DNA from: Clostridia bacterium
GTDB taxonomy: Bacteria; Bacillota; Clostridia; Oscillospirales; CAG-272
DNA: 33,467 nucleotides
Assembly (NCBI GenBank): GCA_017455905.1
Contig: JAFTLQ010000010.1
Span: forward strand, 1-33,467
Direction of reading: 5' to 3'
Below the pieces are notes generated by a model. It did no database searches, had not been told where the DNA came from, and was given only the letters and a program-made list of their open reading frames with translations. Positions 4,993-26,870 of this stretch are shown here, one piece after another. The position numbers and the translations under genes were made by a program. Numbering within the stretch: position 1 is the stretch's first letter; each line of letters opens with the position of its first letter.

Positions 4993-4998
4993 ACCTAC

Positions 4999-5133: not shown

Positions 5134-5140
5134 GTTTTTT

Positions 5141-5168: not shown

Positions 5169-5197
5169 ACATACTGACCTTCCAGCAGGAGGATATT

Positions 5198-9374: not shown

Positions 9375-9920
9375 ATGGCTGATACCCTGCATGCACAAGC
9401 CCGCGCCGCGATAGAAGAATTGAGTCAAAGAGCCAAGCTGACGGAGGGACAGATCATCGTCATCGGCTGCTCGACCAGTGAGATCATCGGCTCGGCGATC
9501 GGCACGAATTCGAGCCCCGACGCCGCCAAGGCCGTCTTTGAGGGCCTGTACGAATATGCGACGGAGCACGGTCTGCACCTTGCGGTACAGTGCTGTGAGC
9601 ATCTTAACCGCGCCATTGTGATCGAGCGGGACGCCGCCCCGCTGGCCGACGCCGTCAACGTCATTCCCCAGCCCAAGGCAGGCGGCTCCATGGCCACGCA
9701 GGCGTACGCGCACTTTAAGCATCCCATCGTCATCGAGCAGGTCCGCGCCGACGCGGGCCTGGATATCGGCTCCACGCTCATCGGCATGCACCTGAAGCCT
9801 GTCGCCGTTCCCGTGCGTCTTGAGCACAACCGCATCGGTGAGGCGACCGTCGTCGCTGCCCGCACCCGCCCAAGGTTCATCGGCGGTGGGCGCGCCGTGT
9901 ACGACGAGCGGCTGATGTAA
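9375..9920 (+). CDS. TIGR01440/UPF0340 family protein (YwlG-like)
   Basis: A 181-residue protein matching the B. subtilis YwlG family along its length. Conserved stretches are IVIGCSTSEIIGSAIGT, VQCCEHLNRAIVIER and KAGGSMATQAYAHF. The family's function is not established. I start it at 9375 because AAAGGAGAT lies 5 bases upstream; the in-frame ATG at 9345 would place the ribosome binding site inside the gene. It follows the AraC gene by 47 bases and may be co-transcribed. An inverted repeat TATGCCAA/TTGGCATA (9305-9342) overlaps the end of the AraC gene. Confidence 0.88.
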   Translation: MADTLHAQARAAIEELSQRAKLTEGQIIVIGCSTSEIIGSAIGTNSSPDAAKAVFEGLYEYATEHGLHLAVQCCEHLNRAIVIERDAAPLADAVNVIPQPKAGGSMATQAYAHFKHPIVIEQVRADAGLDIGSTLIGMHLKPVAVPVRLEHNRIGEATVVAARTRPRFIGGGRAVYDERLM

Positions 9921-9998
9921 TACGAAACGCCCGGCTGCCGTCCCTTACCTTACGCCTTACCATAGAGGTAACACAGAGAAGCCTGTGAGAACACGTGT

Positions 9999-10610
9999 AT
10001 GAAGAATCGAACCCGTATTTTACGCATGACCTTTTGTGCCTTCTTTTTGGCACTTGCCTATGTTTTGCCGTTTTTAACAGGGCAAATTCCCGAAATCGGT
10101 GCCATGCTGTGTCCCATGCACCTGCCTGTTTTGCTATGCGGATTTTTCTGCGGTCCTACTGCGGGGCTGATCGTAGGTGCCACCGCACCGATACTCCGTT
10201 CGCTGACGCTCGGCATGCCGCCGCTGTTTCCTTCGGCGATCTGTATGGCGTTTGAATTGGCCACCTACGGTGCGGTAGCAGGGATCCTGTATAAGGTCCT
10301 TCCGCGCAAAAAGGTGTATGTTTACGTCTCACTGCTGGTGGCGATGATCGCCGGTCGACTTGTGTGGGGAGCTGCCATGTATATCTGCATGGGCCTTAGC
10401 GGCACCGGCTTCACGCTGGCCGCCTTTATGGCAGGCGCCCTCACTAACGCCGCTGTCGGTATCATCGCACAAATCATCCTGGTCCCCATCCTCGTCATAT
10501 TGCTCGACAAGCCGAGCATACTCGGCCGAATGCACGAAAGCCCGTCGCCGCCCGCTCCTGCCCGAGCTTCATCGGCGACAGACGACGCGCGCGACGAGCG
10601 GCGGATGTAA
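9999..10610 (+). CDS. ECF transporter S component
   Basis: A 203-residue membrane protein with about six hydrophobic segments, of the energy-coupling-factor S-component type (PF12822-like). The N-terminus resembles the family's first helix, and small-residue-rich helices such as FFCGPTAGLIVGATAPIL are typical. S components bind a vitamin or other small molecule and dock on a shared EcfA-EcfT module, which is absent here and must lie elsewhere. The substrate is not predictable and I see no riboswitch in the 78 bases before it. The ribosome binding site is weak; an ATG at 10026 is an alternative start. The last ~30 residues are Pro/Ala/Ser-rich and probably disordered. A terminator follows. Confidence 0.78.
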   Translation: MKNRTRILRMTFCAFFLALAYVLPFLTGQIPEIGAMLCPMHLPVLLCGFFCGPTAGLIVGATAPILRSLTLGMPPLFPSAICMAFELATYGAVAGILYKVLPRKKVYVYVSLLVAMIAGRLVWGAAMYICMGLSGTGFTLAAFMAGALTNAAVGIIAQIILVPILVILLDKPSILGRMHESPSPPAPARASSATDDARDERRM

Positions 10611-10618
10611 AAAAAACA

Positions 10619-10670
10619 ACGAGGCTGCCTCCTACGCATGTGAGGCAGCCTCGTTTTTATTTTTATTTGT
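10619..10670. terminator. bidirectional intrinsic terminator
   Basis: ACGAGGCTGCCTC and GAGGCAGCCTCGT form a perfect 13-bp stem (10619-10631 / 10642-10654), followed by a T-rich tract and preceded by a run of A. It ends the S-component transcript and the convergent radical SAM operon. Confidence 0.9.
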
Positions 10671-10736
10671 TTTTATTCATCGGTCGCCGCTTTATACGCA
10701 GCGGGATCGATGGCGACACGATCGATGTACGCGGAA

Positions 10737-15428: not shown

Positions 15429-16268
15429 ATGCGCATCGCTCACATCAATCCCGTGGTACGCTCGGTCGCGTGCTATGAAAAACCGTTACATACCGAACGA
15501 TTGTGCGCACCCGATGCACGGTGCGTATTCGTCCTGTCGGGCGGCGTGACCTTCGAGCATGGTGACGCCATCTCCTGCAAGCTCTCGCCCGGCGCCTTTC
15601 TATACCTGCCGGCAGGGCATCCCTTTCGCGTGCGGTGCGAGTACGCACGTCTGCTGGTCGTGCGCTTTGATCTGACCGACGAGCGCCCCGAGCCCGAGGG
15701 CGACATGCTCCCTACCGCCCCCGAGGCACTGCGCCCGGAGGACGTACACGCACCCGCAGACAGCGCTCCCTTTGATGAGCCCATCCTTCTTGAGGACCTC
15801 GCTGCCGAGCGCGACACCTTCCTCGGGATGCTAAAGACCTTCCGCACAGGCGGCGAATACGCCGAGGCACGCGTCGGCGTCATGCTCAAGGGCGTGCTGG
15901 TGCGTGTGGCGGAAAATTGCGACGAGCAGGCACTTCCCTCGCGCCTCATTGAGTCGCTCGACGAGTACATCCGCGAGCACGCCGACGAGGAGATCTCCAA
16001 CACCGAGCTCGGCGCCATGTTCGGCTATCATCCCTTCTACATCAGCCAGCTTCTCAAGAAAAAGCGCGGCGTCACCCTGCATCAGTACATCCTCTCCTAC
16101 AAGCTGCGCTCCGCGCGCGACAGCCTGCGCTACACCGCCGCTCCCATCGCGGATATTGCGGCGAGCCTCGGCTTCTCCGACGCCTCGTATTTTACCAAGA
16201 GCTTCAAATCCGCCTTCGGCATAACGCCGAAGGACTATCGTAAATCCTTCGAAAAAGACTATATTTGA
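15429..16268 (+). CDS. AraC family transcriptional regulator
   Basis: A 279-residue regulator with an N-terminal cupin-like sensor (LSPGAFLYLPAGHPFRV around residues 53-69) and a C-terminal double helix-turn-helix (NTELGAMFGYHPFYISQLL, then IADIAASLGFSDASYFTKSF) ending ITPKDYRK. AAGGAG precedes the ATG. It is followed 26 bases later by rlmD in the same orientation, so the two are probably co-transcribed; no sugar operon adjoins it. Its target is unknown. Confidence 0.9.
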   Translation: MRIAHINPVVRSVACYEKPLHTERLCAPDARCVFVLSGGVTFEHGDAISCKLSPGAFLYLPAGHPFRVRCEYARLLVVRFDLTDERPEPEGDMLPTAPEALRPEDVHAPADSAPFDEPILLEDLAAERDTFLGMLKTFRTGGEYAEARVGVMLKGVLVRVAENCDEQALPSRLIESLDEYIREHADEEISNTELGAMFGYHPFYISQLLKKKRGVTLHQYILSYKLRSARDSLRYTAAPIADIAASLGFSDASYFTKSFKSAFGITPKDYRKSFEKDYI

Positions 16269-16294
16269 CTATATTTATTTACAAAAGGTGCTGT

Positions 16295-17680
16295 ATGGCT
16301 TTTAAAAAGAATCAGACTGTCATCCTTGAGGTGGTGGATATCAATCATTTGGGCTTCGGCGTTGCCAAGCCCGACGGCTTCGTCGTCTTTATAGGCGGCA
16401 CCGTCCCCGGCGACACGGTGGAGGCAAGGATCATAAAGGTCAACGCCTCGTACGCCGTTGCGCGCACGGAGCGTCTGCTCACCCCCTCGCCGCACCGCGC
16501 GGACACCGAGCGTTGCCCCATCCGCGCCTGCTCGGCCTGCGCCTACAAAAACGTGCGCTATGCCTACGAAAAGGACGTCAAGCGCACCTCAGTCATCCAC
16601 GCCTTTCGCAAGGCGGGGCTTTCCGACGTTGCCGTCGGTGAGCTTCTTTCGACCGAGCAAACGACGCACTATCGCAACAAGGCACAGTTCCCCGTCGCGC
16701 GCCGTGCCGACGGCGGCCTTGCCATCGGATTCTTCGCCCCCAAGAGTCATCGCGTCTGCGAAGCCGCCGCCTGCCCGTTACAGCCGCCCGTCTTTACCGA
16801 CATTCTTGAAACCATCCGCACCTTTGCCGAAGCGCACGCCCTCACCGCCTACGACGAGACCACGGGCGACGGCTGGCTGCGGCATATCTACCTGCGCCGC
16901 GGCGAGGTCAGCGGTGAGATCCTTCTGACCCTCGTCGTCACCGATCGGCACTTCCCTCTCGCGAGCGACTTCGTCCAATGCGTGACGCAAGCGCATCCCG
17001 CCATCGTCGGCATTCTCCTTAATCTTCAACGCGCACGCACCAACGTCATCCTCGGCGACACCTATCTGACGCTCTTCGGCCGCGACTACCTGACGGACAC
17101 GCTCAGCGGCGTCACGCTGTCACTCAGCGCCCCCGCCTTCTATCAGGTCAATCACGATGCCGCCGAGCTTCTCTATCGCAAGGCGCGCGAGCTGGCCGCC
17201 CCGCAGGGGGACGAGCTGCTGCTCGACCTATACTGTGGCGCCGGCTCCATCGGCCTCAGCATGGCGGATGCCGTGCGCGAGGTCATCGGCATTGAGATCG
17301 TCGAAAGCGCCGTGCGCTGTGCCGAGCAAAACGCCAAGCAGAGCGGCATCCAAAACGCGCGCTTCTTTACCGGCGATGCCGCCGATGCCGAGCGTCTGCT
17401 TTGCGATGCCGAGCGTGCCCTCGGCCACGCCATCCGCCCGGATATCGTCATCCTCGACCCGCCGCGCAAGGGCTGCGACGAGCGCCTGCTCACCTATATC
17501 GCCTCCCTCGCCCCCTCGCGCATCGTCTATATCTCCTGCAATCCCGAAACGCTTGCCCGCGACGCGGCGCACCTCGCGCCGCTCGGCTATACCTGCGGCA
17601 CGGTCACGCCCGTGGATCTGTTCCCGGGGACGGGGCACGTCGAGTCCGTCGTTCGTCTCGAACGACGACTCGACAACTAA
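16295..17680 (+). CDS. rlmD: 23S rRNA (uracil-C5)-methyltransferase, RlmD/RumA/TrmA family
   Basis: A 461-residue protein. It has an N-terminal TRAM domain (~5-60), an Fe-S cluster cysteine group (C74, C79, C82 and a later CPLQP cysteine), the SAM-binding LLDLYCGAGSIGLSMA, VILDPPRKGCD, and the catalytic cysteine in YISCNPETLARD (C415). It uses SAM to methylate uracil C5 in RNA, most likely 23S rRNA; exact position (1939 or 747) cannot be told. Start at 16295 behind AAAAGGTG. Its last codons, HVESVVRLERRLDN, are unusual: the DNA for VESVVR is followed by its own inverted complement, which encodes ERRLD. The same end recurs four or more times downstream. The 3' end of rum/rumA is a known integration site for ICEs and phages in streptococci. 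Confidence 0.93.
   Translation: MAFKKNQTVILEVVDINHLGFGVAKPDGFVVFIGGTVPGDTVEARIIKVNASYAVARTERLLTPSPHRADTERCPIRACSACAYKNVRYAYEKDVKRTSVIHAFRKAGLSDVAVGELLSTEQTTHYRNKAQFPVARRADGGLAIGFFAPKSHRVCEAAACPLQPPVFTDILETIRTFAEAHALTAYDETTGDGWLRHIYLRRGEVSGEILLTLVVTDRHFPLASDFVQCVTQAHPAIVGILLNLQRARTNVILGDTYLTLFGRDYLTDTLSGVTLSLSAPAFYQVNHDAAELLYRKARELAAPQGDELLLDLYCGAGSIGLSMADAVREVIGIEIVESAVRCAEQNAKQSGIQNARFFTGDAADAERLLCDAERALGHAIRPDIVILDPPRKGCDERLLTYIASLAPSRIVYISCNPETLARDAAHLAPLGYTCGTVTPVDLFPGTGHVESVVRLERRLDN
17639..17674 (+). repeat. fold-back hairpin made from the 3' end of rlmD
   Basis: GTCGAGT-C-CGTCGTTCG (coding for VESVVR) is followed after three bases by CGAACGACG-ACTCGAC. The stem is 16 bp with one bulged C. 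Equivalent hairpins with different sequence but matching arms occur at 19445-19480, 21031-21070 and 23326-23361. Confidence 0.85.
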
Positions 17681-17868
17681 GTTCGCCTTCGGCGAGTGAA
17701 GTTTTCTTACGAAAGTGAAGTTGCCTATCGGCAGTGAAGTTTGCGCCGCACGCGGCGCAAGTTAATAGTAGTTTAGGGCGAACTTAACTTCACTTTGCGA
17801 GTAAAACGAGCAAAACTTCACTTTGAGCGTAGCGAACAACTTCACTTTTGCAAAGCAAAAACTTCACT
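17679..17868 (+). repeat. mirrored hairpin array A, spacer word AGTGAAGTT
   Basis: The array begins in the rlmD stop codon with AAGTTCGCC. Left half: three AGTGAAGTT words separated by small palindromes (CGCC-TTCG-GCG, TTC-TTAC-GAA, GCC-TATC-GGC, TGCGCCGC-AC-GCGGCGCA). Centre: GGGCGAACTT, the complement of the opening AAGTTCGCC. Right half: four AACTTCAC(T) words separated by others (TTGC..GCAA, TTTTGC-AAA-GCAAAA). No four-helix-bundle gene follows this copy; element GGACAAAT comes next. Confidence 0.88.
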
Positions 17869-17876
17869 TATTATCA

Positions 17877-17945
17877 GGGACAAATAATGATTTCGAGCTA
17901 AACTCAATAGTTCTTTTACAGCAGTTTAGTAAACAAGACGAAAGG
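17877..17945 (+). repeat. cassette 5' element, copy 1
   Basis: A conserved stretch of about 60-70 bases: GGACAAAT..TGATTTCGAGC..ACTCAA.., then TTTACAGCAGT, then AAAGGA. Similar copies start at 20035, 22659 and 23659. Each ends at the ribosome binding site of an accessory gene, here that of the gene at 17953. No sigma-A promoter is recognisable in it. Confidence 0.7.
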
Positions 17946-17952
17946 AAAAACA

Positions 17953-18474
17953 GTGAAATCAAAAGTTTCAAAACAGAATGAATTTGATCCTAAATTGGGT
18001 TTTGAGATAAAAAATCCTGTTTGGGCGTTTTGGGTTTGTCTATTAGCGATGATAGGTTGCCTTGTAACCTATTTTGTGTTTCTCTTTCTTAAAACACGAA
18101 ATGTAATAGCCACGGATACTTTTTATATCGGATACATTTTTTTGGTTTTATCACTCTTATCGGCGGTTGGTGTTTATGCTTGGGTTTGCGAGAAACTTAC
18201 CTATTCAAACGGAGATTACAAGTATTATCGGGCTTTCGGCAAAAATCGAATTGCCCCTGTTGAAGAAATCGGCTTGGTTAAAGTATTAATTTTTTATTAT
18301 CATATCAAATATGGTGGTATACGCAGTAAAATAAGAATTTTCTTTTATGACAACTCAAAGAACATTATAATAAAGATAATCGACGACGGCACATTAAGTG
18401 AAAATGAAATATTTTTAAAATCGTTAAAATATAATCGCATAAAGATAATACGCGAGGAAAAATACGATTATTGA
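17953..18474 (+). CDS. small membrane protein of unknown function (cassette gene)
   Basis: A 173-residue protein with two membrane segments (about residues 24-47 and 58-82) and a hydrophilic C-terminal half with beta-rich character (KYYRAFGKNRIAPVEEIGLV, IRIFFYDNSK). I do not recognise a family; a PH-like domain anchored by two helices is one possibility. It starts with GTG behind AAAGG. Codon and base use are AT-rich, unlike rlmD next to it, which points to acquisition. It is bounded by cassette elements on both sides. Confidence 0.7.
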   Translation: MKSKVSKQNEFDPKLGFEIKNPVWAFWVCLLAMIGCLVTYFVFLFLKTRNVIATDTFYIGYIFLVLSLLSAVGVYAWVCEKLTYSNGDYKYYRAFGKNRIAPVEEIGLVKVLIFYYHIKYGGIRSKIRIFFYDNSKNIIIKIIDDGTLSENEIFLKSLKYNRIKIIREEKYDY

Positions 18475-18537
18475 TATGTTTCCAAGTACCAATTAAAAAT
18501 CAGGGACAAAAGTGCTTTTTCACCTATGTTTTGAGGA

Positions 18538-18638
18538 CTTTTTGGCTTTACAACCCTCGTTTTTGGCATAAAAATATACCTTTTGTACTCTTGACCCACG
18601 TTGAAAGTTTAGTTTGTCTTACAAAAAACAACATATAG
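18538..18638 (+). repeat. cassette 3' element with rlmD-end copy 1
   Basis: The first part (18538-18592) has the conserved GGCTTTACAACCC.CGTTTTTGGCATAAA followed by AAATATACCTTTTG. It is followed by a frame matching the rlmD end: HVESLVCLTKNNI and stop (18597-18638). The fold-back arm is largely missing here, and no array follows. The rlmD-like frame ends just before the ribosome binding site of the next gene. Confidence 0.75.
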
Positions 18639-18650
18639 AGGAAGTTTGTT

Positions 18651-19370
18651 ATGAAAATTTTATCAATTGGGAACAGCTTTTCGCAAGATGCGCAAAGATA
18701 TTTACACCGCCTTGCGAAGCAAGACGGTACGGAATTGAAAACCGTCAATCTCTATATCGGCGGCTGCCCCTTGCAAAAGCATTATCTTAATATGCTGGAT
18801 GACAATGCCGCTTATGATTTTGAATTTAACGGAGAAAAAACGGACATCAAGGTTTCTATCAGACAAGCACTTGTCAGCGATTCTTGGGATTTTATCACGT
18901 TGCAGCAGGCAAGTCATTTCAGCGGGAAATACGAAACCTATTCGCCGTATATCGAAGCACTTGCTGCATACGTCAGAAAGTATTGCCCTCACACAAAAAT
19001 TTTGATACATCAAACGTGGGCGTATGAAGATGGCAGTGAAAAACTGGGGAATCTGGAATATGCTTCTGCAAAAGAAATGCTATCTGCCGTTTGCGATTGC
19101 TATAGTAAAGCGGCGCAGAATATAAACTCCTACGGAATCATCCCTTGCGGCGAAGCCATGATGATGGCTTTGGATATGGGTATCGAAAAGATACATCGAG
19201 ATACTTTCCATGCCTCTCTCGGCGCAGGCAGGTATTTGTTAGCGCTTTGCTGGTATAAAGCCCTGACAAAAAAGGATATCACGGGCAACTCGTTTAACGA
19301 TTTTGACATGCCCGTAACCGAACAAGAGAGGGACATCGTAATCAAAGCGGTAAATTCTGTGTTCAGATAA
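18651..19370 (+). CDS. SGNH-type hydrolase, DUF4886-like (cassette gene)
   Basis: A 239-residue protein that opens with MKILSIGNSFSQDAQ, the nucleophile-serine block of SGNH hydrolases as found in DUF4886. IGGC supplies the oxyanion glycine, LQQASHFS the third block, and RDTFHASLGAGRYL the catalytic Asp-x2-His. The length fits a single-domain enzyme without a signal peptide. In gut bacteria such proteins are often carbohydrate esterases, but the substrate is not shown here. GAGGAAG precedes the ATG. The gene is AT-rich and lies between two copies of the rlmD 3' end. Confidence 0.85.
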   Translation: MKILSIGNSFSQDAQRYLHRLAKQDGTELKTVNLYIGGCPLQKHYLNMLDDNAAYDFEFNGEKTDIKVSIRQALVSDSWDFITLQQASHFSGKYETYSPYIEALAAYVRKYCPHTKILIHQTWAYEDGSEKLGNLEYASAKEMLSAVCDCYSKAAQNINSYGIIPCGEAMMMALDMGIEKIHRDTFHASLGAGRYLLALCWYKALTKKDITGNSFNDFDMPVTEQERDIVIKAVNSVFR

Positions 19371-19375
19371 CGCAG

Positions 19376-19486
19376 AAATATACCTTTTGGCCTTACAACC
19401 CCCGTTTTTGGCATAAAAATATACCTTTTGACCTTATGTCCCATGTCGAGTCGGTCGTGTGTCTCACACGACGACTCGACAACTAA
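19376..19486 (+). repeat. cassette 3' element with rlmD-end copy 2 and fold-back hairpin
   Basis: AAATATACCTTTTG occurs twice (19377 and 19417), on either side of GCCTTACAACCCCCGTTTTTGG. Then comes the frame HVESVVCLTRRLDN-stop (19442-19486), almost identical to the true rlmD terminus at protein level but different in DNA. The arms GTCGAGTCGGTCGTGTG and CACACGACGACTCGAC pair with one bulge. Confidence 0.85.
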
Positions 19487-19663
19487 GTTCGCCTACGGCG
19501 AGTGAAGTTGCAAGCAGTGAAGTTTCGTCTATCGCCGAAGTGAAGTTTGCGCCGCCTGCGGCGCAAGTGATGATTAGTTTAGGGCGAACTTAACTTCACT
19601 TTGCGACGAAGAAGCAAAACTTCACTCAATCCGACTTCACTTTTGCGAAGCAAAAACTTCACC
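19485..19663 (+). repeat. mirrored hairpin array B, spacer word AGTGAAGTT
   Basis: Same plan as array A. AAGTTCGCC opens it, AGTGAAGTT words alternate with palindromes (CGCC-TAC-GGCG, GC-AA-GC, TCG..CGA, TGCGCCGC..GCGGCGCA), GGGCGAACTT marks the centre, and AACTTCACT words follow (TTGC..GCAA, TTTTGC-GAA-GCAAAA). It ends 7 bases before the ribosome binding site of the four-helix-bundle gene. Confidence 0.88.
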
Positions 19664-19680
19664 CAAAAGGAGAAAAAACT

Positions 19681-20034
19681 ATGAAAGACTCAGAACTGCG
19701 TACAAGAGCAAAAACTCTTGCTTTACATATCATTGCCGTATGCGATGAGGTGGATACGCGAAAAAGCAGAGGCGTGCTTGTCAATCAAATCGTAAGAAGC
19801 GCAACATCTATCGGAGCAAATATTCACGAAGCCAACTATGCTGCAAGTAAAGCGGATTTTATCAATAAATTTCATTTAGCACTCAAGGAATGTGGCGAGA
19901 CGGAATATTGGATTGAAATGCTTGTCGGCTCAAACGCTATAAGCGAACAAATTTCAAAAGATCTTTTACAAGAGTGCGACTCTATTCGCCGTATGCTTGT
20001 AAAATCCATCACCACCGCAAAGGAAAACGCGTAA
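19681..20034 (+). CDS. four-helix-bundle protein (S23/Avd-like), array-associated copy 1
   Basis: A 117-residue protein of the same family as the one at 14569 (QIVRSATSIGANIHEANYA, then KFHLALKECGETEYWIEML). AAAAGGAG precedes the ATG at 19681. It differs from the copy at 21285 at about nine of the first 113 residues, with long stretches of identical DNA, so the two are recent duplicates. The family is known from 23S rRNA intervening sequences and retroelements (Avd), and usually binds nucleic acid. Its fixed place directly behind a hairpin array suggests that it binds the array as RNA or DNA, or helps it move. Its stop codon directly abuts cassette element GGACAAAT. Confidence 0.9.
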   Translation: MKDSELRTRAKTLALHIIAVCDEVDTRKSRGVLVNQIVRSATSIGANIHEANYAASKADFINKFHLALKECGETEYWIEMLVGSNAISEQISKDLLQECDSIRRMLVKSITTAKENA

Positions 20035-20112
20035 GGACAAATGTGAGTTTCAAGCAACACTCAAAAGTTAGTCTTACAGCAGTACAGTATAACACATTGA
20101 AAGAAAAGGAGA
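20035..20112 (+). repeat. cassette 5' element, copy 2
   Basis: GGACAAATGTGAGTTTCAAGC..ACTCAAAAG..., then CTTACAGCAGTA, ending at AAAAGGAGA before the GH43-like gene. It starts at the base after the four-helix-bundle stop codon. Confidence 0.7.
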
Positions 20113-20120
20113 TTAAAATT

Positions 20121-20954
20121 TTGATTAAAAAAAGCGAATTGCGAATAAGGGATCCATTTATCCTTACAGATTTTGAAACAGGATGCTATTACATGTACGG
20201 CACTATTGACCTAAAGCCCGGCTCGTACGCTACCGCCCCCACCTTTTCGGTTTGCAAAACGTATGATCTTGAAAATTTTGAGGAACCCAAGGTTATCTTT
20301 GACGGTAGAAAAATAGACTTTTGGGCAGATAGGGATTTCTGGGCTCCTGAAGTGCATAAATACAATGGCCGATATTATCTCTTTGGAAGTTGCAAGGCAG
20401 AAGGTAAATGCCGTGCTACGCACATTTTTTCGTGTGATAAACCTGACGGAGAATTCACACCTGTGTCAGAAAAGCCAATTACTCCGCCCGATTGGGAATG
20501 CCTTGATGGAAGTTTCTTTGTTGAGGATGGCACACCCTATATGATATTCTGTCACGAGTGGGTACAAATCAAAGACGGAGAAATATGGGCGGTGGAACTT
20601 TCAAATGACCTTTCGCAAGCAGTAGGTGACCCGTTTAGGCTATTCAAGGCATCGGATAATCCCGGCGTGAGTGAGCTAAAACCGAAAACGGGGAACTATG
20701 TTACAGACGGCCCATTCTTATATTGCGAGGACGGCAAGGTAAAGATGATATGGTCAAGCTTTTTCAATGGAAGATATCTCATCCTTGAGGCGCAAAGTGA
20801 TTCATTGCGAGGGAAATGGACGCATAAAGGCAGCAAGTTTGATTTCGACGGAGGCCATGCAATGATATTTACCACGCTTGAAGGCAAAAGAATGATCTCG
20901 CTTCACACGCCAAACAAAACAGACTTTGAACGTTCTGCTTTTTATGAACTTTGA
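20121..20954 (+). CDS. GH43-like glycoside hydrolase, five-bladed beta-propeller (cassette gene)
   Basis: A 277-residue protein with the order of motifs expected for the GH43 fold: IRDPF near the N-terminus (catalytic base Asp), FWAPEVHKYNGRYYLFGS, CLDGSFF (second Asp), VTDGPFLY and FDGGHAMIF. Where textbook GH43 enzymes have Glu-Gly-Pro as general acid, this one has Asp-Gly-Pro; I recall the same variant in many gut homologues, so it may define a subgroup. No signal peptide is seen, so it likely acts in the cytoplasm on short arabino- or xylo-oligosaccharides. I start it at TTG 20121, 9 bases after AAGGAGA; no ATG fits, and the open frame further upstream overlaps the previous gene. Confidence 0.85.
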   Translation: MIKKSELRIRDPFILTDFETGCYYMYGTIDLKPGSYATAPTFSVCKTYDLENFEEPKVIFDGRKIDFWADRDFWAPEVHKYNGRYYLFGSCKAEGKCRATHIFSCDKPDGEFTPVSEKPITPPDWECLDGSFFVEDGTPYMIFCHEWVQIKDGEIWAVELSNDLSQAVGDPFRLFKASDNPGVSELKPKTGNYVTDGPFLYCEDGKVKMIWSSFFNGRYLILEAQSDSLRGKWTHKGSKFDFDGGHAMIFTTLEGKRMISLHTPNKTDFERSAFYEL

Positions 20955-20961
20955 AGTTGAG

Positions 20962-21078
20962 AAATATACCTTTTGGCTTTACAACTCCCGTTTTTGGCAC
21001 GAAAATATACCTTTTGTACTCTTGACCCATGTTGAAACTATTGTTTGTCTTAGCAAACAATAGTTTCAACAACTAAGT
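20962..21078 (+). repeat. cassette 3' element with rlmD-end copy 3 and perfect fold-back hairpin
   Basis: AAATATACCTTTTG recurs on both sides of GCTTTACAACTCCCGTTTTTGG. The rlmD-like frame is HVETIVCLSKQ-stop (21028-21063). GTTGAAACTATTGTTTG pairs perfectly over 17 bp with CAAACAATAGTTTCAAC, although the sequence differs from the GC-rich version in rlmD itself: both arms have changed together. Confidence 0.85.
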
Positions 21079-21263
21079 TTGCCCTTGCGGGCAAGTGAAG
21101 TTGCCTTCGGCAGTGAAGTTCACTGCGTGAGTGAAGTTTCGCCTGACGGCGAAGTGGGGCAAACTTAACTTCACTTTGCGACGAAGGAGCAAAACTTCAC
21201 TGTGAGGAAATTTGCAAAGCAAATTGACGAACAACTTCACTTTTGCGAAGCAAAAACTTCACC
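21074..21263 (+). repeat. mirrored hairpin array C, spacer word AGTGAAGTT
   Basis: AAGTTTGCCC opens and GGGGCAAACTT marks the centre; both differ from arrays A and B by the same compensating change. Left palindromes: TGCCC-TTGC-GGGCA, GCC-TTC-GGC, CAC-TGC-GTG, CGCC-TGAC-GGCG. Right palindromes: TTGC..GCAA, TTTGC-AAA-GCAAA, TTTTGC-GAA-GCAAAA between AACTTCAC words. A four-helix-bundle gene follows. Confidence 0.88.
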
Positions 21264-21284
21264 AGATATCAAAAGGAGAAAGCT

Positions 21285-21644
21285 ATGAAAGACTCAGAAT
21301 TACGTACACGAGCCAAAGTATTGGCTTTACATATAATTGCCATCTGTGATGAGGTGGACACACGCAAAGGCAGAGGTGTGCTCGTAAATCAAATTGTAAG
21401 AAGTGCAACATCTATCGGAGCAAATATTCACGAAGCCAACTATGCTGCAAGTAAAGCGGATTTTATCAATAAATTTCATATAGCACTCAAGGAATGTGGC
21501 GAGACGGAATATTGGATTGAAATGCTTGTCGGCTCAAACGCTATAAGCGAACAAACCGCAAAAGTTCTCTTGCAAGAGTGTGGCACTATTCGCCGTATGC
21601 TTGTAAAGTCCATCACCACCGCAAAAGAAGGCAAAGAAATATGA
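21285..21644 (+). CDS. four-helix-bundle protein (S23/Avd-like), array-associated copy 2
   Basis: A 119-residue near-duplicate of the protein at 19681, again directly behind a hairpin array and an AAAAGGAG ribosome binding site. The two differ mainly in conservative changes and in the last few residues. Here the stop codon overlaps the next gene's start in ATGA (21641-21644). Element GGACAAAT, which follows the other copy, is missing, so the junction to the cassette gene is different. Confidence 0.9.
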   Translation: MKDSELRTRAKVLALHIIAICDEVDTRKGRGVLVNQIVRSATSIGANIHEANYAASKADFINKFHIALKECGETEYWIEMLVGSNAISEQTAKVLLQECGTIRRMLVKSITTAKEGKEI

Positions 21645-22306
21645 TCAACATTTTGCTTGAGGGCTATGACATAGATGCACCATGGCTTTATGACAAATTA
21701 AAGAACTACATACAACCTACCCACAGAGTAGCGGTCATTGCGTTTTCTTTTCGAGATAGCCGTGTAAAATCTCTTGATGACTGGAACGTCTTGTATAGTA
21801 AGGACAACGGTAGATTTTACGGCGGTATTGTCGGTAGCTTTGCTGCGTATGGAGTATCCGATGATAATATTTCGTTTGTGAATTATTTTACGGATACAAA
21901 GGAGTCTGCAAAAAGAAAAATTGAAAATGCGGATATTATTTATTTTCTCGGCGGTTTACCGGACAGGATGATGGAGCGCATCAAAGAGTTTGATTTGCAA
22001 GATGTTCTGATGAGCCACGACGGAATTGTTATGGGCTATAGCGCTGGTGCTGTTATTCAGCTTTCCGAATACCATTTATCACCTGATGATGATTATCCCG
22101 AATTTAAATATTATAAGGGATTGCCATATTTGAATGACTTTTATTTAGAAGTGCATTATGAGGGCACTTTCTCTCAAAACGCGGCAATTCAAAAGGTGCT
22201 TGAAGAACGCAAGAAAACGGTATATGCAACCGCTCTAATGAACGGTGCCATACTTGTTGACAATGGAGTTGTTAAATTGCTTGGTGACGTGAAAGCGTAT
22301 AAATAA
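21641..22306 (+). CDS. peptidase E-like protein (S51 family, class I glutamine amidotransferase fold; cassette gene)
   Basis: A 221-residue protein. IIYFLGGLPDRMMERI and the nucleophile elbow GYSAGAVI (Ser ~134) match dipeptidase E-type serine peptidases, which cleave Asp-Xaa dipeptides; the family also includes proteins of other function. The His of the triad is probably in EVHYEG. The start ATG overlaps the stop of the four-helix-bundle gene by 4 bases, so translation is coupled, perhaps by an accident of insertion. The stop codon lies inside the next cassette 3' element. The gene is AT-rich like the other cassette genes. Confidence 0.82.
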   Translation: MINILLEGYDIDAPWLYDKLKNYIQPTHRVAVIAFSFRDSRVKSLDDWNVLYSKDNGRFYGGIVGSFAAYGVSDDNISFVNYFTDTKESAKRKIENADIIYFLGGLPDRMMERIKEFDLQDVLMSHDGIVMGYSAGAVIQLSEYHLSPDDDYPEFKYYKGLPYLNDFYLEVHYEGTFSQNAAIQKVLEERKKTVYATALMNGAILVDNGVVKLLGDVKAYK

Positions 22307-22362
22307 ATATACCTTTTGGCCTTACACCCCCGTTTTCGACCGATTTTGAGACCTTTTGCAAC
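22305..22362 (+). repeat. cassette 3' element, copy 4, rlmD end deleted
   Basis: AAATATACCTTTTGGCCTTACACCCCCGTTTT begins the element as in the other copies (given here in pieces: AAATATACCTTTTG, then GGCCTTACACCCCCG). Instead of the rlmD-like frame, GAGACCTTTTGCAACACTAAG joins directly to the next module. Compared with 23300-23370, the rlmD-end hairpin has been lost between GAGACCTTTTGC and AACTAAG. Confidence 0.65.
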
Positions 22363-22658
22363 ACTAAGTTCGCCTGCGGCGAATGAAAGCGTCCCATCCG
22401 CCGTGTCATCCTTGAGCGAAGCGAAGGATCTCGGCAGACCAAACAAGGAGAGCGCTATGTATTATGTTTATATCCTGACGAACAAATCGGACAAGGTTAT
22501 GTATATAGGAGTTACAAACGACTTGCCACGTCGGCTGTATGGAATCCCGAGTGGATAGATTTGACTGACAAATTGTTTCCGGGGGTTTTCGCGTAGCAAT
22601 TCGCCCGAGATCCTTCGCTTCGCTCGAGGATGACACGGGCGAGGCGAGATACACGCAA
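22363..22658 (+). mobile_element. decayed GIY-YIG element with 34-bp inverted repeats, copy 1
   Basis: Left repeat 22401-22434 (starts CCGTGTCATCCTTGAGCG) and right repeat 22605-22638 are inverted and match at 33 of 34 positions. Between them lies a truncated GIY-YIG gene. A copy with only a few base changes sits exactly 1000 bases downstream. The repeats contain the GATCCTTCGCTTCGCTC motif common around such genes in many bacteria. Confidence 0.75.
22457..22558 (+). pseudogene. truncated GIY-YIG nuclease domain gene, copy 1
   Basis: 33 residues with the family start MYYVYILTNKSDKVMYIGVT and NDLPRRLY, then an abrupt stop. Intact UPF0213-like GIY-YIG proteins continue for about 50-60 more residues with the catalytic Arg/Glu region, which is missing. 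AAGGAG precedes the ATG, so the stub may still be translated. Confidence 0.8.
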
Positions 22659-22735
22659 GGACAAATGTGATTTTCGAGCATAACTCAAAACTCTCATTTA
22701 CAGCAGTCAGGTTCAACATATCGAAGAAAGGAAAT
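22659..22735 (+). repeat. cassette 5' element, copy 3
   Basis: GGACAAATGTGATTTTCGAGC..AACTCAAAA..., then TTTACAGCAGT, GTTCAACATATCG and AAAGGA before the gene at 22741. Nearly identical to the copy at 23659. Confidence 0.7.
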
Positions 22736-22740
22736 AGAAA

Positions 22741-23019
22741 ATGTCTACCAAATCACGCAGAAGAAAAGAGATACGAAACATAGATAAGCAATCATCTGAT
22801 ATTTTATCAATGCAAAAGCAGACAATGAAAAAAGCATTTTTCGATTATTTATGGGCTGCAATTATGTTTTTTGCAATGACACTTATCGTATTTGCGGTTG
22901 GGCTTTTGACCGATGATGATTCACATTCTAAACAAATTATTTTTGTTGCTACGCCCATTATTCTCTGCATAACGATCATCTTTATTTTCCTTTTCCTACG
23001 CCGTTTTATAATTTTTTAA
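22741..23019 (+). CDS. small membrane protein of unknown function (cassette gene)
   Basis: 92 residues: a basic N-terminal part (SRRRKEIRNIDK) and two membrane segments (about 35-57 and 66-90). GAAAGGAAAT precedes the ATG. No family is recognised. AT-rich composition and flanking cassette elements mark it as acquired. Confidence 0.65.
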   Translation: MSTKSRRRKEIRNIDKQSSDILSMQKQTMKKAFFDYLWAAIMFFAMTLIVFAVGLLTDDDSHSKQIIFVATPIILCITIIFIFLFLRRFIIF

Positions 23020-23075
23020 AAATAAATAAAATAATTTTTTTAAGAGAACAAATCATCGAAATCACATGCAAAAAG

Positions 23076-23297
23076 GTGACATTTTTAACTCAACCGATAT
23101 CAAAACATTCAGCCGTAATTATATGTATTATTCTTATAGATGAAAACGGCAAAAAATATTATGATATAACAAATAGCATTTTGGATTGTGCAAAAAAAGG
23201 AACAAAAGAGGAACTCTTGAACGCAAAAGTTTTCCTTGTTTGTTATGCAAATACAAACTGCGTAAAAACTTATCAATTGCGTACAGATAAAGAGTAG
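23076..23297 (+). CDS. hypothetical protein, possibly truncated (cassette gene)
   Basis: About 73 residues from a GTG at 23076; the frame is open further upstream to the end of the previous gene without a good start. The sequence (LIDENGKKYYDITNSILDCA, AKVFLVCYANTNCVKTYQLR) looks like a folded beta-alpha protein but I know no family for it. The lack of a ribosome binding site suggests an N-terminal truncation. The rlmD-end copy 5 follows 25 bases later. Confidence 0.4.
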   Translation: MTFLTQPISKHSAVIICIILIDENGKKYYDITNSILDCAKKGTKEELLNAKVFLVCYANTNCVKTYQLRTDKE

Positions 23298-23322
23298 ATT
23301 GAGACCTTTTGCTCTTATGACC

Positions 23323-23367
23323 TACGTCGAATCCGTCGTGTGTCTCGCACGACGACTCGACAACTAA
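23323..23367 (+). repeat. rlmD-end copy at the end of the fifth cassette
   Basis: The frame YVESVVCLARRLDN-stop repeats the rlmD terminus. The arms GTCGAATCCGTCGTG and the following CACGACGACTCGAC pair with small mismatches. AACTAAGTTCGCC follows as in rlmD, but then comes the GIY-YIG module and no hairpin array. Confidence 0.8.
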
Positions 23368-23658
23368 GTTCGCCTGCGGCGAATGAAAGCGTCCCATCCG
23401 CCGTGTCATCCTTGAGCGAAGCGAAGGATCTCGGCGGACCGAACAAGGAGAGCGCTATGTATTATGTTTATATGCTGACGAACAAATCGGACAAGGTTAT
23501 GTATATAGGAGTTACAAACGACTTGCCACGTCGGCTGTATGGAATCCCGAGTGGATAGATTTGACGGGCAAATTGTTTCCGGGTGTTTTCGCATAGCAAT
23601 TCGCCCGAGATCCTTCGCTTCGCTCGAGGATGACACGGGCGAGGCGAGATACACGCAA
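23363..23658 (+). mobile_element. decayed GIY-YIG element with 34-bp inverted repeats, copy 2
   Basis: The near-identical twin of 22363-22658 at an offset of exactly 1000 bases, with inverted repeats at 23401-23434 and 23605-23638. I count about seven base differences over roughly 300 positions, so the copy is recent. Confidence 0.75.
23457..23558 (+). pseudogene. truncated GIY-YIG nuclease domain gene, copy 2
   Basis: Same 33-residue stub as at 22457 with one residue change (MLTNK for ILTNK). The truncation point is identical, so the truncated form was what duplicated. Confidence 0.8.
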
Positions 23659-23735
23659 GGACAAATGTGATTTTCGAGCAAAACTCAAAATGCCATTTTA
23701 CAGCAGTAGGTTCAACATATCGAAAGGACTTTATA
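23659..23735 (+). repeat. cassette 5' element, copy 4
   Basis: GGACAAATGTGATTTTCGAGC..AACTCAAAATGCC, TTTTACAGCAGTA, GTTCAACATATCG, AAAGGA before the rhamnosidase-like gene at 23739. Confidence 0.7.
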
Positions 23736-23738
23736 CAG

Positions 23739-25274
23739 ATGGAACAAGATCGGATGATAAACGATTATAAAAAGCAAAATATAGAAGATATAAAATCCTA
23801 TTATTTGCAAAAAGCGGACGAAAATTTGCCAAAGCTCAACAAAACATTAATAGTCCCTAATGTGTGCGCGTCTGCATTGAATAGGGGAGATACATTCGTG
23901 TTAGATTTGGGCAATCATTATGTCGGATATTTTTCCTTCAACATGTGGTTTGCGGATGCATATATTGACGCGCCGGTCAGAATGTCGGTCCGCTTCTGTG
24001 AAACAAAGCGCGAGTTGGAGGATGATTATACTGACTATCACGGCGAGCTTTGCGAGTCGTGGTTGCAAGAGGAGATCATCAACGTCGATTTCCCCGGAGA
24101 ATATAGAATGCCGCGAAGATATGCCGCAAGGTACGTGAAAGTTAATATTCTGCGCACACCAAAAAAAATATCCTTGTCCGATTTCAAGTTTGAAGCCGAG
24201 TCCGGCGCGGATACGGCTGCTCTCAAGCCCTTTGAAATCACGGACGACGAGCTGGGCGCGATTGATAGAGTTGCGGTCAACACACTCAAGAACTGTATGC
24301 AACGTGTTTTTGAGGACGGACCCAAAAGAGACAGGCGGCTGTGGATCGGTGATTTGCGTCTTGAGGCGCTTGCAAATTATTACACATTTGATAATATTTC
24401 GTTGGTAAAAAGGTGTTTGTACTTATTTGCAGCGGCTGAACGTAACGAATACGGGATCCTGCCCGGCTTCGTATATGAAAATCCAATCTTTTGCTCGGGT
24501 AGTTGGTTCTTGATTGATTACTCGTTGATGTTTGTATGCACCTTGTGCGATCTGTACTCTCACACGAGGGACACGAAAACCTTTCACGACCTCTATCCAA
24601 TCGCAAAGTCTATTTTGGATGTTTTGGATGCAACAAAAGACGATGAGGGACTTGTTACTACCCGTAGCGGTGATGTATTTATAGATTGGTGCCAAGGGCT
24701 GAAAAAAGGCTCTGCGCTGGAGGGAATATATCTATATACGCTTGACAGGTGGTGCGAGGTGTTAGAATCCATCGGCAATGAAGACGATGCGGCACTGTAC
24801 AGAGCGCGCCTTGAGCAAGGAAGAGCCGCTTCTCGCAAATATTTGTACGATGAAAAGAAAGGTGCTTTCATAAACAAGCGCGACGAATATCAAAACAGTG
24901 TCCATACAGCAACGTGGATGGTTTTAGGAGGGGTTGTCAAAGGGAATGAAGCAAAACACATTCTAAAAGAAGTCATCTCCTCTCCCGATTCCGTTAAGCC
25001 GTTTACTCCTTATATGCATCACTATACCGTCGATGCACTCATAAAAGCCGGCTTGATGCAGGAAGCAGAAAAATATATTCGCAACATCTGGGGAGGTATG
25101 GTGAAAATGGGAGCCGACACCTTTTTTGAGGTGTACGTACCGAGCGATCCTGACTTTTCGCCATACGGAGACAGAAAGGTTAACAGTATGTGCCATGCTT
25201 GGAGTTGCACGGCAACGTATTTTATCAGAAAATATGGTTTTGGGAAACCACTGCACAATACAACTTTTGACTAA
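23739..25274 (+). CDS. alpha-L-rhamnosidase-like glycoside hydrolase (GH78-type six-hairpin fold; cassette gene)
   Basis: A 511-residue protein with an N-terminal beta-sandwich (about 1-180) and a six-hairpin (alpha/alpha)6 barrel. The motif DGPKRDRRLWIGDLRLEA (from residue ~193) corresponds to the DCP.RE...W.GD block of GH78 enzymes and carries the acidic residues. Later WCQG, NSVHTATWMVLGG and HAWSCTATYFIRKYGFG complete the pattern. No signal peptide is present, so it should act in the cytoplasm on imported rhamnosides. Start at 23739 behind AAAGGA with an 11-base gap; the upstream frame to 23667 lies in the cassette element. It is the last gene of the cassette region and is of intermediate base composition. 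Confidence 0.85.
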   Translation: MEQDRMINDYKKQNIEDIKSYYLQKADENLPKLNKTLIVPNVCASALNRGDTFVLDLGNHYVGYFSFNMWFADAYIDAPVRMSVRFCETKRELEDDYTDYHGELCESWLQEEIINVDFPGEYRMPRRYAARYVKVNILRTPKKISLSDFKFEAESGADTAALKPFEITDDELGAIDRVAVNTLKNCMQRVFEDGPKRDRRLWIGDLRLEALANYYTFDNISLVKRCLYLFAAAERNEYGILPGFVYENPIFCSGSWFLIDYSLMFVCTLCDLYSHTRDTKTFHDLYPIAKSILDVLDATKDDEGLVTTRSGDVFIDWCQGLKKGSALEGIYLYTLDRWCEVLESIGNEDDAALYRARLEQGRAASRKYLYDEKKGAFINKRDEYQNSVHTATWMVLGGVVKGNEAKHILKEVISSPDSVKPFTPYMHHYTVDALIKAGLMQEAEKYIRNIWGGMVKMGADTFFEVYVPSDPDFSPYGDRKVNSMCHAWSCTATYFIRKYGFGKPLHNTTFD

Positions 25275-25310
25275 ACATGGTTCTTATTATGAGTCCGTCA
25301 AGGAGGACGT

Positions 25311-26198
25311 ATGAAAAGCAAAACGCGTGTCAGGGATCTGTGTATCGACCTATTATATGCCATTCTTGCCGGCTGCATCGTCGGTACTGCCTATTATTTC
25401 TTTCAGAACAGCAACGGATTTGCACCGGGCGGTGTCGGCGGACTCGCGACCATTACCCATTATCTGCTGGCCGATAAGGTAAGCTGGTCGATCTTAATGG
25501 TTGCGTTTAATCTGCCGATCTTTATTCTGGTGAGCGCCATCGTCAACAAAAAGCTCGGTATCATGTTGAGCATCTATATGCTCGTCCAGTCGTTTTTGCC
25601 CAAGCTGTACGAGCTTCTCGGCGCTTTGCCCTATTGTGCCGCGTACAATCAAGCGGACTTCAACATCGTGTTCGCTTGTATAGCCACCGGTGTTATATCC
25701 GGCTTTGGCTTTTCCCTTATGCTCAAACGCTTTGGCGCCAGCGGCGGCACGTACGGGATCTCCGCCCTGATCAAAAAGGTGCGTCCCGAAACCAACATAG
25801 CCTACGTGTCCTTCATCATGGATGCGAGCGTGGTGGTCATCGCGTTTTTCGTGTACGGCATGAGGATCACCCCCGTCATGTGTACGCTGCTCAATCTGTT
25901 TATCGCTGACGTCATTGTGGATCACGGCCTCAGCGGCGTTAAAAACGGCTATAAATTTGAGATCATAACAAGCCATCCGAACGAATTGTCCGAAGACTTG
26001 ATGACGCGCTTAAAGCACGGCATAACCGCCATAAACGTCCACGGCATGTATTCCGACACCGACAAGTATATGCTCATCTGCATCATAAACAAACGACAGA
26101 TCGGCGACATGATGAAGATCCTCAAAAGCCATCCCGACACCTTTGCCAGCTTTGAAAAGGTAAACGAGGTGTTCGGAAACTTTAAAAGAAAGGTTTGA
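25311..26198 (+). CDS. YitT family membrane protein (DUF161 + DUF2179)
   Basis: A 295-residue protein with about five membrane segments in the first ~200 residues, including the family stretch GFAPGGVGGLATI and SGGTYGISALI, then a soluble C-terminal DUF2179 domain (about 215-290, VHGMYSDTDKYMLICIINKR). The family is widespread in Firmicutes and of unproven function. AAGGAGG precedes the ATG closely. It starts 36 bases after the rhamnosidase-like gene and marks the return to the GC-richer composition of the core genome. Confidence 0.93.
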   Translation: MKSKTRVRDLCIDLLYAILAGCIVGTAYYFFQNSNGFAPGGVGGLATITHYLLADKVSWSILMVAFNLPIFILVSAIVNKKLGIMLSIYMLVQSFLPKLYELLGALPYCAAYNQADFNIVFACIATGVISGFGFSLMLKRFGASGGTYGISALIKKVRPETNIAYVSFIMDASVVVIAFFVYGMRITPVMCTLLNLFIADVIVDHGLSGVKNGYKFEIITSHPNELSEDLMTRLKHGITAINVHGMYSDTDKYMLICIINKRQIGDMMKILKSHPDTFASFEKVNEVFGNFKRKV

Positions 26199-26273
26199 TC
26201 CGGCGCACCGAAGGTGCCTGTCGCGTGATCCCCGTGCGGAATGGAGCATGCTCCTCGCGGAAAAGGAGAACAT

Positions 26274-26870
26274 ATGAAATACTCGTTTGAACAAATAAAA
26301 AGCTACTTACAAGAGCTTCTTGAAACATACTGTGAGCCTGAATTGAGTCTATGGATCAAGGATCGAGAATATATGATCATTCTTTACGATGATTATTGCT
26401 CATTTCAAACATGCGATGGCACGATGAAGGTTTTGAACTTTGCCTCCCTCGATGAACTTTATACAGCAGAAGTTTACGATGGCATCGTGTTGAAAAACGA
26501 TTGGGATCGGATCTCCAAAATTGAATGTATTGACTTTGATTATTTACATTTGCCAACGGAAATATTGCCCTGCACAGATTCCATGCACGAACTTAACATT
26601 ATATATGAAAAATTAAAAAACACATATAATCTAACGCGAACCAACACGTTTTCGTTAAACGATGGATACACCATCGATGTACCGGTTATCCGTGGGACCG
26701 CAGCAGATAGGCGATTTGATTTGTATAAAGAAGAAGATATGTTTGTTTTCTCTGTTGAATTTTTTGATAAAGCAGGAGACGGCAAGTATTCTCACACTCA
26801 CCCTTATGATGTAGAAGACGCCATACACTGTATTGAAGCCTTCATGTCAGGAAAATCGATGTTTGATTGA
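26274..26870 (+). CDS. hypothetical protein of unknown function
   Basis: A 198-residue soluble, acidic protein (start MKYSFEQIKSYLQELLE, later EFFDKAGDGKYSHTHPYD) with no family I recognise. AAAAGGAG lies 5 bases before the ATG at 26274. The gene is clearly AT-richer than YitT and the dehydratase on either side, so it was probably acquired. The 75 bases before it hold small palindromes (GGAGCATGCTCC, and GGCGCACC-GAA-GGTGCC with a bulge). Confidence 0.7.
   Translation: MKYSFEQIKSYLQELLETYCEPELSLWIKDREYMIILYDDYCSFQTCDGTMKVLNFASLDELYTAEVYDGIVLKNDWDRISKIECIDFDYLHLPTEILPCTDSMHELNIIYEKLKNTYNLTRTNTFSLNDGYTIDVPVIRGTAADRRFDLYKEEDMFVFSVEFFDKAGDGKYSHTHPYDVEDAIHCIEAFMSGKSMFD

Follow-up and report, generated by a model that had tools for sequence, protein, structure and literature searches.

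The gene rlmD of a Clostridia bacterium (contig JAFTLQ010000010.1), which encodes a 23S rRNA uracil methyltransferase, is followed by a row of small gene units punctuated by copies of its own last codons. The window that we analyzed consists of the first 33,467 bases of this 111-kb contig, which belongs to a genome of 1.25 Mb that is 56% complete. An earlier note on this DNA had listed five in-frame rlmD-end peptides closed by a stop codon, which we call tags, and all five were found, at positions 17636, 18597, 19442, 21028 and 23323 (Table 1). The note had described single, unrelated plus-strand genes between them; the strand was confirmed, but the intervals also carry hairpin combs of the Gut-1 RNA type, two open reading frames (ORFs) of the 23S_rRNA_IVP family and two copies of a GIY-YIG fragment element. 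The interval between 21028 and 23323 represents two units, since a junction at 22305-22366 has decayed. The GIY-YIG element measures 300 bp, has inverted repeats of 43 nt and occurs in copies exactly 1000 bp apart, each right behind a junction.

Inspection of the five window sites showed that the repeated unit is a DNA core of approximately 26-31 bp, CAYGTNGARAGTGTCGTTTGTCTSAC, and not a longer piece of the rlmD 3' end. At all four sites outside rlmD, the 25 bp before the core are occupied by a cassette-end motif, ATACCTTTTGGNNTNNTGACC, instead of rlmD sequence, with a second degenerate copy of the motif at three of them. The tag forms the 5' arm of a hairpin at every window site except 18597, and the weakest of these hairpins (z -3.0, at 23323) was equaled by 1 of 200 shuffles.

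Table 1. Features of the rlmD array in the window (tags are given as peptides; D and I numbers denote repeats).
Feature	Position	Strand	Remarks
rlmD, 23S rRNA uracil methyltransferase	16265..17680	+	ORF; Pfam tRNA_U5-meth_tr (76.6 bits) and TRAM; last codons form the first attachment-like site
Site 0, tag HVESVVRLERRLDN-stop inside rlmD	17636..17675	+	hairpin z -3.9
Gut-1-like hairpin comb, GTGAAGTT/AACTTCAC repeats	17674..17876	+	RF01706, 36 bits at 17674-17745, below the gathering score of 50; D5, D7-D9
Cassette leader, divergent copy GGGACAAAT..TTTTACAGCAGT..	17877..17946	+	read from the DNA against the leader consensus
Cassette gene 1, 173 aa	17953..18474	+	no Pfam, NCBIfam or PADLOC match; relative in L270
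Cassette-end motif(s) and tag 2, HVESLVCLTKNNI-stop	18531..18622	+	tag at 18597; no hairpin
Cassette gene 2, DUF4886	18651..19370	+	starts directly behind tag and lacks a leader; a G019 (L051) gene matches it at 89.7% nt identity
Two degenerate cassette-end motifs and tag 3, HVESVVCLTRRLDN-stop	19376..19483	+	tag at 19442; D3, D4; hairpin z -6.2
Gut-1-like comb	19480..19671	+	RF01706, 27 bits at 19480-19551, below the gathering score; RNA fold 19436-19680, z -7.2
23S_rRNA_IVP / four helix bundle ORF	19681..20034	+	Pfam PF05635, 86.7 bits; TIGR02436
Cassette leader	20035..20110	+	D6
Cassette gene 3, glycosyl hydrolase family 43	20121..20954	+	PF04616, 117 bits
Two degenerate cassette-end motifs and tag 4, HVETIVCLSKQ-stop	20962..21070	+	tag at 21028; perfect hairpin z -8.5
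Gut-1 RNA	21070..21142	+	RF01706, 52 bits (gathering score 50); comb span given as 21070-21264
Second 23S_rRNA_IVP ORF	21285..21644	+	300-bp repeat (D2), 90% identical to the first copy
Cassette gene 4, peptidase S51-like	21641..22306	+	PF03575, 43.5 bits
Decayed junction, cassette-end motifs kept, tag lost	22305..22366	+	copy of D4 at 22305
GIY-YIG fragment element with inverted repeats, copy 1	22363..22662	+	D1, I1; Pfam
Cassette leader	22659..22731	+	exact match to the leader pattern
Cassette gene 5, 92 aa	22741..23019	+	no family match
Cassette-end motif and tag 5, YVESVVCLARRLDN-stop	23302..23360	+	tag at 23323; imperfect hairpin z -3.0
GIY-YIG fragment element, copy 2	23363..23662	+	98% identical to copy 1 (D1)
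Cassette leader	23659..23729	+	exact match to the leader pattern
GH78 alpha-L-rhamnosidase-like gene, last of the tagged stretch	23739..25274	+	PF21104 and PF17389; no tag found behind the gene

A site consensus was derived from 96 sites in related genomes, 52 of them rlmD ends and 44 classed as cassette sites, one of which (L112) turned out to be an rlmD end where the contig begins. Seventeen loci, most of them of other families, and spurious matches in L050 and L113 had been left out before this count, and a few sites of families f11 and f20 stayed in it. The common core is CACGTNGARAGTGTCGTTTGTCTGAC, its conservation being in part built in by the search pattern. At rlmD ends it is preceded by the codons D-L/M-F-P-x-T-G, and at cassette sites by AAAAATATACCTTTTGGNGTCTTGACC, often with a second degenerate copy further 5'. 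Because the core there follows the cassette-end motif and not rlmD codons, the tags of the cassettes are not what is left of longer rlmD copies, an origin that the earlier note had named as fatal to its proposal. Full-length rlmD paralogues do account for some tags: certain second tags in families f20 and f23 are the ends of such genes and not of cassettes (L126, L127, L128 and L132), and one interval ORF of L293 is an rlmD paralogue carrying the tag. The paralogue in the former four loci is shorter (about 377-397 aa) and lies a few kb behind rlmD, at 4398-5531, 3463-4599, 4244-5377 and 9515-10708, respectively, in array orientation.

A cassette begins just 3' of one tag and ends at the next. 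It holds mostly one or two genes on the rlmD strand, an optional 5' module (comb and IVP ORF) with a conserved leader, and the conserved 3' motif that ends at the tag. The 5' side is variable: in L039, L094, L111 and L123 some genes start directly behind the tag with a ribosome-binding site (RBS), and other cassettes carry a hairpin comb (Gut-1 RNA in Rfam), often an ORF for a four-helix-bundle 23S_rRNA_IVP protein (26 ORFs in 25 of 58 loci), and then the leader. The leader consensus, GGGACAAATGTGA..TTTACAGCAGTTTAGTATAACATATCGAAAGGAG, rests on 48 leaders in 37 loci; 39 of the 45 that have an upstream tag in the locus lie at most 900 bp from it, and RNAalifold gave no RNA structure for the leader. 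An Rfam search of positions 17000-26500 for group I or II introns returned no match at an E value of 5 or better.

Both motifs are tied to the arrays. When six genomes were searched, the exact leader pattern gave seven matches in three of them, all seven in an rlmD array, and none in the other three. The junction pattern, with up to 3 mismatches allowed, gave 19 matches in all six genomes, 18 of them on the array contig; the nineteenth (G041) is next to a tag, at a distance of 1.2 kb from the end of a contig. Reversed-pattern controls gave no match in either case.

The earlier note had suggested a search of related genomes for the tag. A degenerate tag pattern matched in 40 of 69 genomes of the genus, 17 of which have at least two matches as counted from the table, and in 89 of 297 genomes at the level of the order; the reversed control gave one match in total in the genus and none in the order. 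A single match may be the end of rlmD itself, and the match in G005:C3 (L113) is no array. The tags are not a product of chance, and two to five of them occur in several genera of the same family. In a collection of genomes from 84,980 species, the f1 junction was found in 73 stretches, all titled as metagenome-assembled genomes (MAGs) of Clostridia, Clostridiales or Oscillospiraceae, and every title that names an animal names a ruminant. The viral contigs searched for the f1 tag or the f1 junction yielded neither. In f4 (G027; L059) and f23 (G362; L133), tags lie between other small genes and follow a different motif, CTTTTTATTnAC..CCnAGG, which suggests independent cassette lineages with a site of their own.

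A survey of cassette contents covered 58 loci, comprising family f1, two loci of other families (L129 and L135) and GTDB contigs of unstated family; they contain 87 tag-to-tag intervals between 200 and 3500 bp long. The median interval is 937 bp, and 86 of the 87 have their longest ORF on the array strand. One array-strand ORF of at least 60 aa is present in 53 intervals and two in 26; altogether, 131 such ORFs fall into 76 clusters, of which 54 are singletons. Cargo in the window includes DUF4886, GH43, peptidase S51 and GH78 genes next to genes without a match. Ten chosen cargo representatives from elsewhere gave a Pfam match in four cases (DUF4085, PHP, NERD and a metallo-beta-lactamase fold) and none in six, and PADLOC reported no defense gene among 8 proteins chosen from a larger set.

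Evidence that these units move comes from comparisons between genomes. L123 (G361, 98% complete), L272 and L318 represent different species and not strains, no strains of one species being at hand. They are 93.7-96.8% identical over stretches that cover rlmD, and the downstream flanks of L123 and L318 are 88.6% identical over 4.3 kb, yet their cassettes differ. L123 diverges from the other two 31 bases after the start of the rlmD tag; L272 and L318 have the first cassette in common and part company within the cassette-end region, 49 and 8 bases ahead of the next tag. Identity between these relatives breaks at a tag or the motif before it, and gene order is not fixed, both as the idea of captured cassettes in the earlier note had anticipated. 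In L288 and L292, a common stretch of 5.8 kb (93% identity) starts 68-69 bases before a tag, and the sequence in front of it is different. The best homologue of the window gene at 32714-33286 lies between 298 bp (G003) and 15,034 bp (the window) away from rlmD in 10 of the 67 loci in which rlmD was located; in the fetched stretches of the other 57 no homologue was found.

Conversely, the same small cassettes recur in different genera. We compared the DNA identity of cassette segments, which are not always closed by tags on both sides (the L038 gene lies 3.9 kb behind the only tag seen), with the amino acid identity of RlmD in 15 chosen pairs. In 9 of these the segments are 91-97% identical and RlmD only 44-60%, as in L091/L125 (96.2 versus 43.9), L100/L122 (94.0 versus 57.1) and L046/L093 (93.0 versus 59.9). 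Among the others, the values are 94.8% versus 68% for L091/L094, 89.7% versus 53% for the window and L051, 88.6% versus 70% for L048/L110, 86.8% versus 46% for L053/L093 and 80.7% versus 33% for L093/L134; L115/L130 share 92.2%, with no RlmD to compare. A gene whose product begins with MTSTKR lies behind four different 5' modules in four genomes: identity starts at the leader in all four, and the cassette-end motif follows in the three in which the right end lies inside the stretch. Since contents differ among close relatives with breaks at tags, while near-identical cassettes recur in distant genomes, the units look like mobile single-gene cassettes.

The docking point is one that known elements use. 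A putative 18-bp core attB, GCATCACGTGGAGTGTGT, is given for phage Phi-m46.1 in the rum gene of Streptococcus pyogenes on the basis of sequenced junctions (PMC4288039). It covers the H-V-E codons, the very rlmD codons that make up the tag, and insertion into these codons at the rlmD 3' end is what we find here. The gene rumA is also known as a site for integrative mobilizable elements (IMEs) and integrative and conjugative elements (ICEs) with serine integrases (PMC5704250, PMC5357655), and tandem accretion at streptococcal rum with repeated att sites is reported (PMC5053989).

No recombinase is encoded in the window array, as had been remarked. We scanned the 4,135 ORFs of 151 array loci (1.48 Mb, some overlapping) with 69 recombinase queries, 54 tyrosine and 15 serine, using phmmer, and obtained only two matches: one is a XerC-like gene of L126, 10 kb away from rlmD, and the other, in L306, is the gene for a large serine recombinase of 558 aa. 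This second gene ends in frame with the tag (..SLDNDTQVETIVCLCKQ-stop) and stands directly before a cassette, with comb, IVP ORF, gene, cassette-end motif and next tag following on its 3' side. L306 and L180 are the same contig of genome G066 (MAG RGIG8732), so that this is a single case, and rlmD itself lies outside the stretch read. The integrase is accompanied by a fragment that we take to be relaxase-like. Proteins related to the integrase are the recombinase of Streptococcus phage phi-SsuFJZZ32_rum (53.7%), the Javan105 integrase (77.1%) and a plasmid recombinase of Anaerococcus prevotii (76.5%), among others. Fifteen close relatives on viral contigs were found among 17 loci, of which 11 end in or contain a recognizable tag; of the remaining four, two are cut off, one is degenerate and one was not resolved. 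All four annotated relatives that were read have tag-type ends (HVECVALL, QVECVVLM, QVEAIALI and TDETVVCL). The tag is the rlmD stretch for which a role as core attB has been proposed in a streptococcal phage, and it also stands at the end of the genes for related large serine integrases. Some serine integrases of 654-662 aa and the rlmD product of G037 (L353, L361, L364 and L030) have a long extra C-terminal part, situated behind the tag where visible, as if neighboring elements fused coding sequence across the att site.

Other recombinases were considered and rejected. A tyrosine recombinase of 279 aa had no tag at any locus read. Genes of 279-280 aa of this kind were seen at 3251-4094 of L173 (G000:C13) and in L190, L192 and L196, and the copy in the genome of the window appears broken into two frames; the adjoining genes in three loci are presumably SipW/TasA-like. 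In two single cases a recombinase is encoded upstream of rlmD, a tyrosine recombinase in G045 (at 2 kb) and a serine recombinase in G067; neither gene has a tag at its end.

Because the site equals an attB and one array contains the enzyme, we infer that the cassettes are moved in trans by serine-integrase recombination. The explanation that we favor, and consider somewhat more probable than not, is that small mobile gene cassettes dock one after another at the rlmD 3' end and are moved by a rum-type serine integrase. Cassettes would excise and insert as circles that recombine inside the tag, and the catalyst would be a rum-type large serine integrase that a phage or an integrated element with the same target site brings in. 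As the tag re-encodes the last rlmD codons, RlmD would stay intact after each insertion, and cassettes with an RBS behind the tag could be expressed by read-through from rlmD.

Several observations weigh against this explanation. The integrase was found in one array (G066) among the 151 loci scanned. Serine recombinases are present in 24 of 69 genomes of the genus (58 rows), and 4 of the 8 array genomes tested have one, in one case as a fragment; of the 29 rows read to the C-terminus, 28 lack the tag, G066 being the only exception. PF00239 has no match in G250, G342, G268 and G069, which are 97, 95, 96 and 84% complete and carry two to five tags at rlmD. The cassette-end motif has no significant similarity to the integrase's own att side (263 of 2000 shuffles were as good), no free circle or excision event was seen, and the hairpin arms, which mostly travel together but are sometimes mismatched, do not place the crossover within the tag. 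In L318 the right-hand return to the common flank occurs without a visible tag. Finally, the data are MAG contigs, many of which end inside or near arrays; contig ends inside or just behind an array would fit repeats or strain variation there.

The main rival is homologous recombination between tags, in which incoming DNA would enter in a RecA-dependent manner via 50-60 bp of motif plus tag, combs or IVP modules, with rlmD as a hot spot and no dedicated recombinase. It would accommodate the four array-bearing genomes without a PF00239 match, and is in line with combs and IVP modules that begin at tags and are 80-90% identical between arrays, and with gene modules that stand behind different 5' modules. 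However, some cassettes (L039, L123, L094 and L111) have neither comb nor IVP, only the short motif and the tag, and near-identical cassettes occur where RlmD is as low as 44% identical, which leaves little homology outside the tag. Nor would it explain why the docking point is an integrase attB. We regard this rival as unlikely, although it deserves to be taken seriously.

A housekeeping XerC/D-like tyrosine recombinase of about 350 aa could instead act on the tags, as in Xer-exploiting elements. Such a protein is the only PF00589 match in the array-bearing genomes G361, G007 and G069, and about 50 of the 69 genomes of the genus have their best match in the same score range, although not each was confirmed to be the same protein. 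Against a role in the arrays, the copy in the genome of the window belongs to the XerC/XerD family itself (83 bits, versus an integrase_gron cut-off of 265), genomes without a second tag also have a XerC/D-like protein, and the site consensus shows no core with inverted arms by eye, no dedicated scan having been run. A search for dif gave matches in 7 of 12 genomes, and its control in 9 of 12. This possibility seems quite remote to us.

Of similarly low probability is the view that the arrays are decayed full-size ICE, IME or phage insertions accreted at rlmD, or rlmD paralogues, that no longer move. The tandem accretion in streptococci (PMC5053989), lost or decayed copies such as the window junction at 22305 and the L048 leader, and the tag-bearing full-length paralogues of f20, f23 and L293 would suit it. 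Yet no relaxase, conjugation or phage genes were noticed by eye in the ORF lists of the window and of part of the arrays, where no profile search of all ORFs was run, only G066 shows an integrase with a relaxase-like fragment, and the same small cassettes occur in different genera. A true integron, or a cluster of attC sites lacking integron-integrases (CALIN), is practically discounted: despite mostly single-ORF cassettes in one orientation with a common 3' site, the attC motif failed (GTTRRRY and RYYYAAC at 1 of 44 cassette sites each, fewer than the 3.7 and 4.1 of shuffles), the 54 tyrosine-recombinase queries detected only the XerC-like gene of L126 and no IntI near arrays, the XerC-like protein of this genome, the one scored among the PF00589 matches of ten genomes, lies far below the integrase_gron cut-off, and no more than 56 of the 96 sites have a hairpin, which lies on the opposite side of the junction.

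That same count rules out an attachment hairpin as a general recombination signal. The site hairpin appears to arrive with insertion of the Gut-1 comb; array combs begin behind an inverted copy of the rlmD tag. Unlike the leader and junction motifs, Gut-1 combs are dispersed: they were found in 65 of 69 genomes of the genus at an E value of 0.001, in 54 above the family cut-off, with up to at least 48 matches per genome, and 14 control genomes gave one weak match. In 4 of 10 fetched Gut-1 loci outside the array (L200, L202, L205 and L208) a hairpin stands directly before the comb by eye; in the other six no comb start in that orientation was visible. It is as if insertion of the comb copied or targeted a hairpin. 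PMC2864571 lists Gut-1 RNA (RF01706) as 'Human gut only'.

Among known systems, the arrays share the site, and not the integrase, with the rum elements compared (Phi-m46.1, the ICESp1108 group, IME_SpnAP200_rumA and phi-SsuFJZZ32_rum), whose integrase family ends in the tag. Rum elements range in size from 5 to about 74 kb and usually carry the gene for their integrase, whereas the units here measure approximately 1 kb, hold mostly one or two genes, lack an integrase and have a conserved 3' motif of their own; a large serine integrase encoded by the unit was seen in G066 only, with no other serine recombinase in the array loci. In being flanked by att-like sites, lacking an integrase and using a common site, the units resemble cis-mobilizable elements (CIMEs), excision in trans being putative. 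In the staphylococcal and Enterococcus cassette chromosomes (SCC and ECC), large serine recombinases insert cassettes with variable cargo and repeated att sites into the 3' end of rlmH (PMC6222049), likewise an RNA methyltransferase gene. The arrays differ from these in their target (rlmD), in having as sole array-near serine recombinase the rum-type enzyme of G066 (no Ccr profile was run), in their very small units and in their greater length. Stacking and ccr-less forms occur in SCC and ECC.

The earlier note had likened the locus to an integron cassette array. In layout, as integrons and CALINs are defined in PMC8618304, this holds: tandem, mostly single-ORF cassettes in one orientation, an anchored end, a common 3' site and diverse, often unnamed cargo. 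The arrays are nevertheless not integrons, because the attC motif failed and no IntI was found; the anchor lies in a housekeeping gene, and the recombinase is probably of the serine and not the tyrosine type. By analogy, then, they may work like SCC and ECC at rlmH while resembling integrons in layout.

Overall, the suggestion that cassettes are captured, or insertions stacked, by a system with the rlmD end as its recurring attachment site is supported. Among the open-licence papers listed for cassettes, integrons and rlmD, rumA or rlmH sites we found no description of such arrays. More tentatively, and with somewhat less than even confidence, we propose an integron-independent capture system active across several families of gut Clostridia, in which integrase-less single-gene cassettes with a dedicated 3' recombination motif and a leader would form arrays at the rlmD end, served in trans by serine integrases of phages and elements that use the same site. 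To our knowledge, no platform other than integrons is widely known to gather single genes into ordered arrays. If our proposal is true, the rlmD arrays would be a second one, a site-specific insertion system that preserves the gene at which it is anchored and is based on another recombination chemistry and a housekeeping-gene anchor, so that gene-cassette economies would have arisen on more than one occasion; a pool of mobile genes, most of them unnamed, would also come to light in uncultured gut Clostridia.

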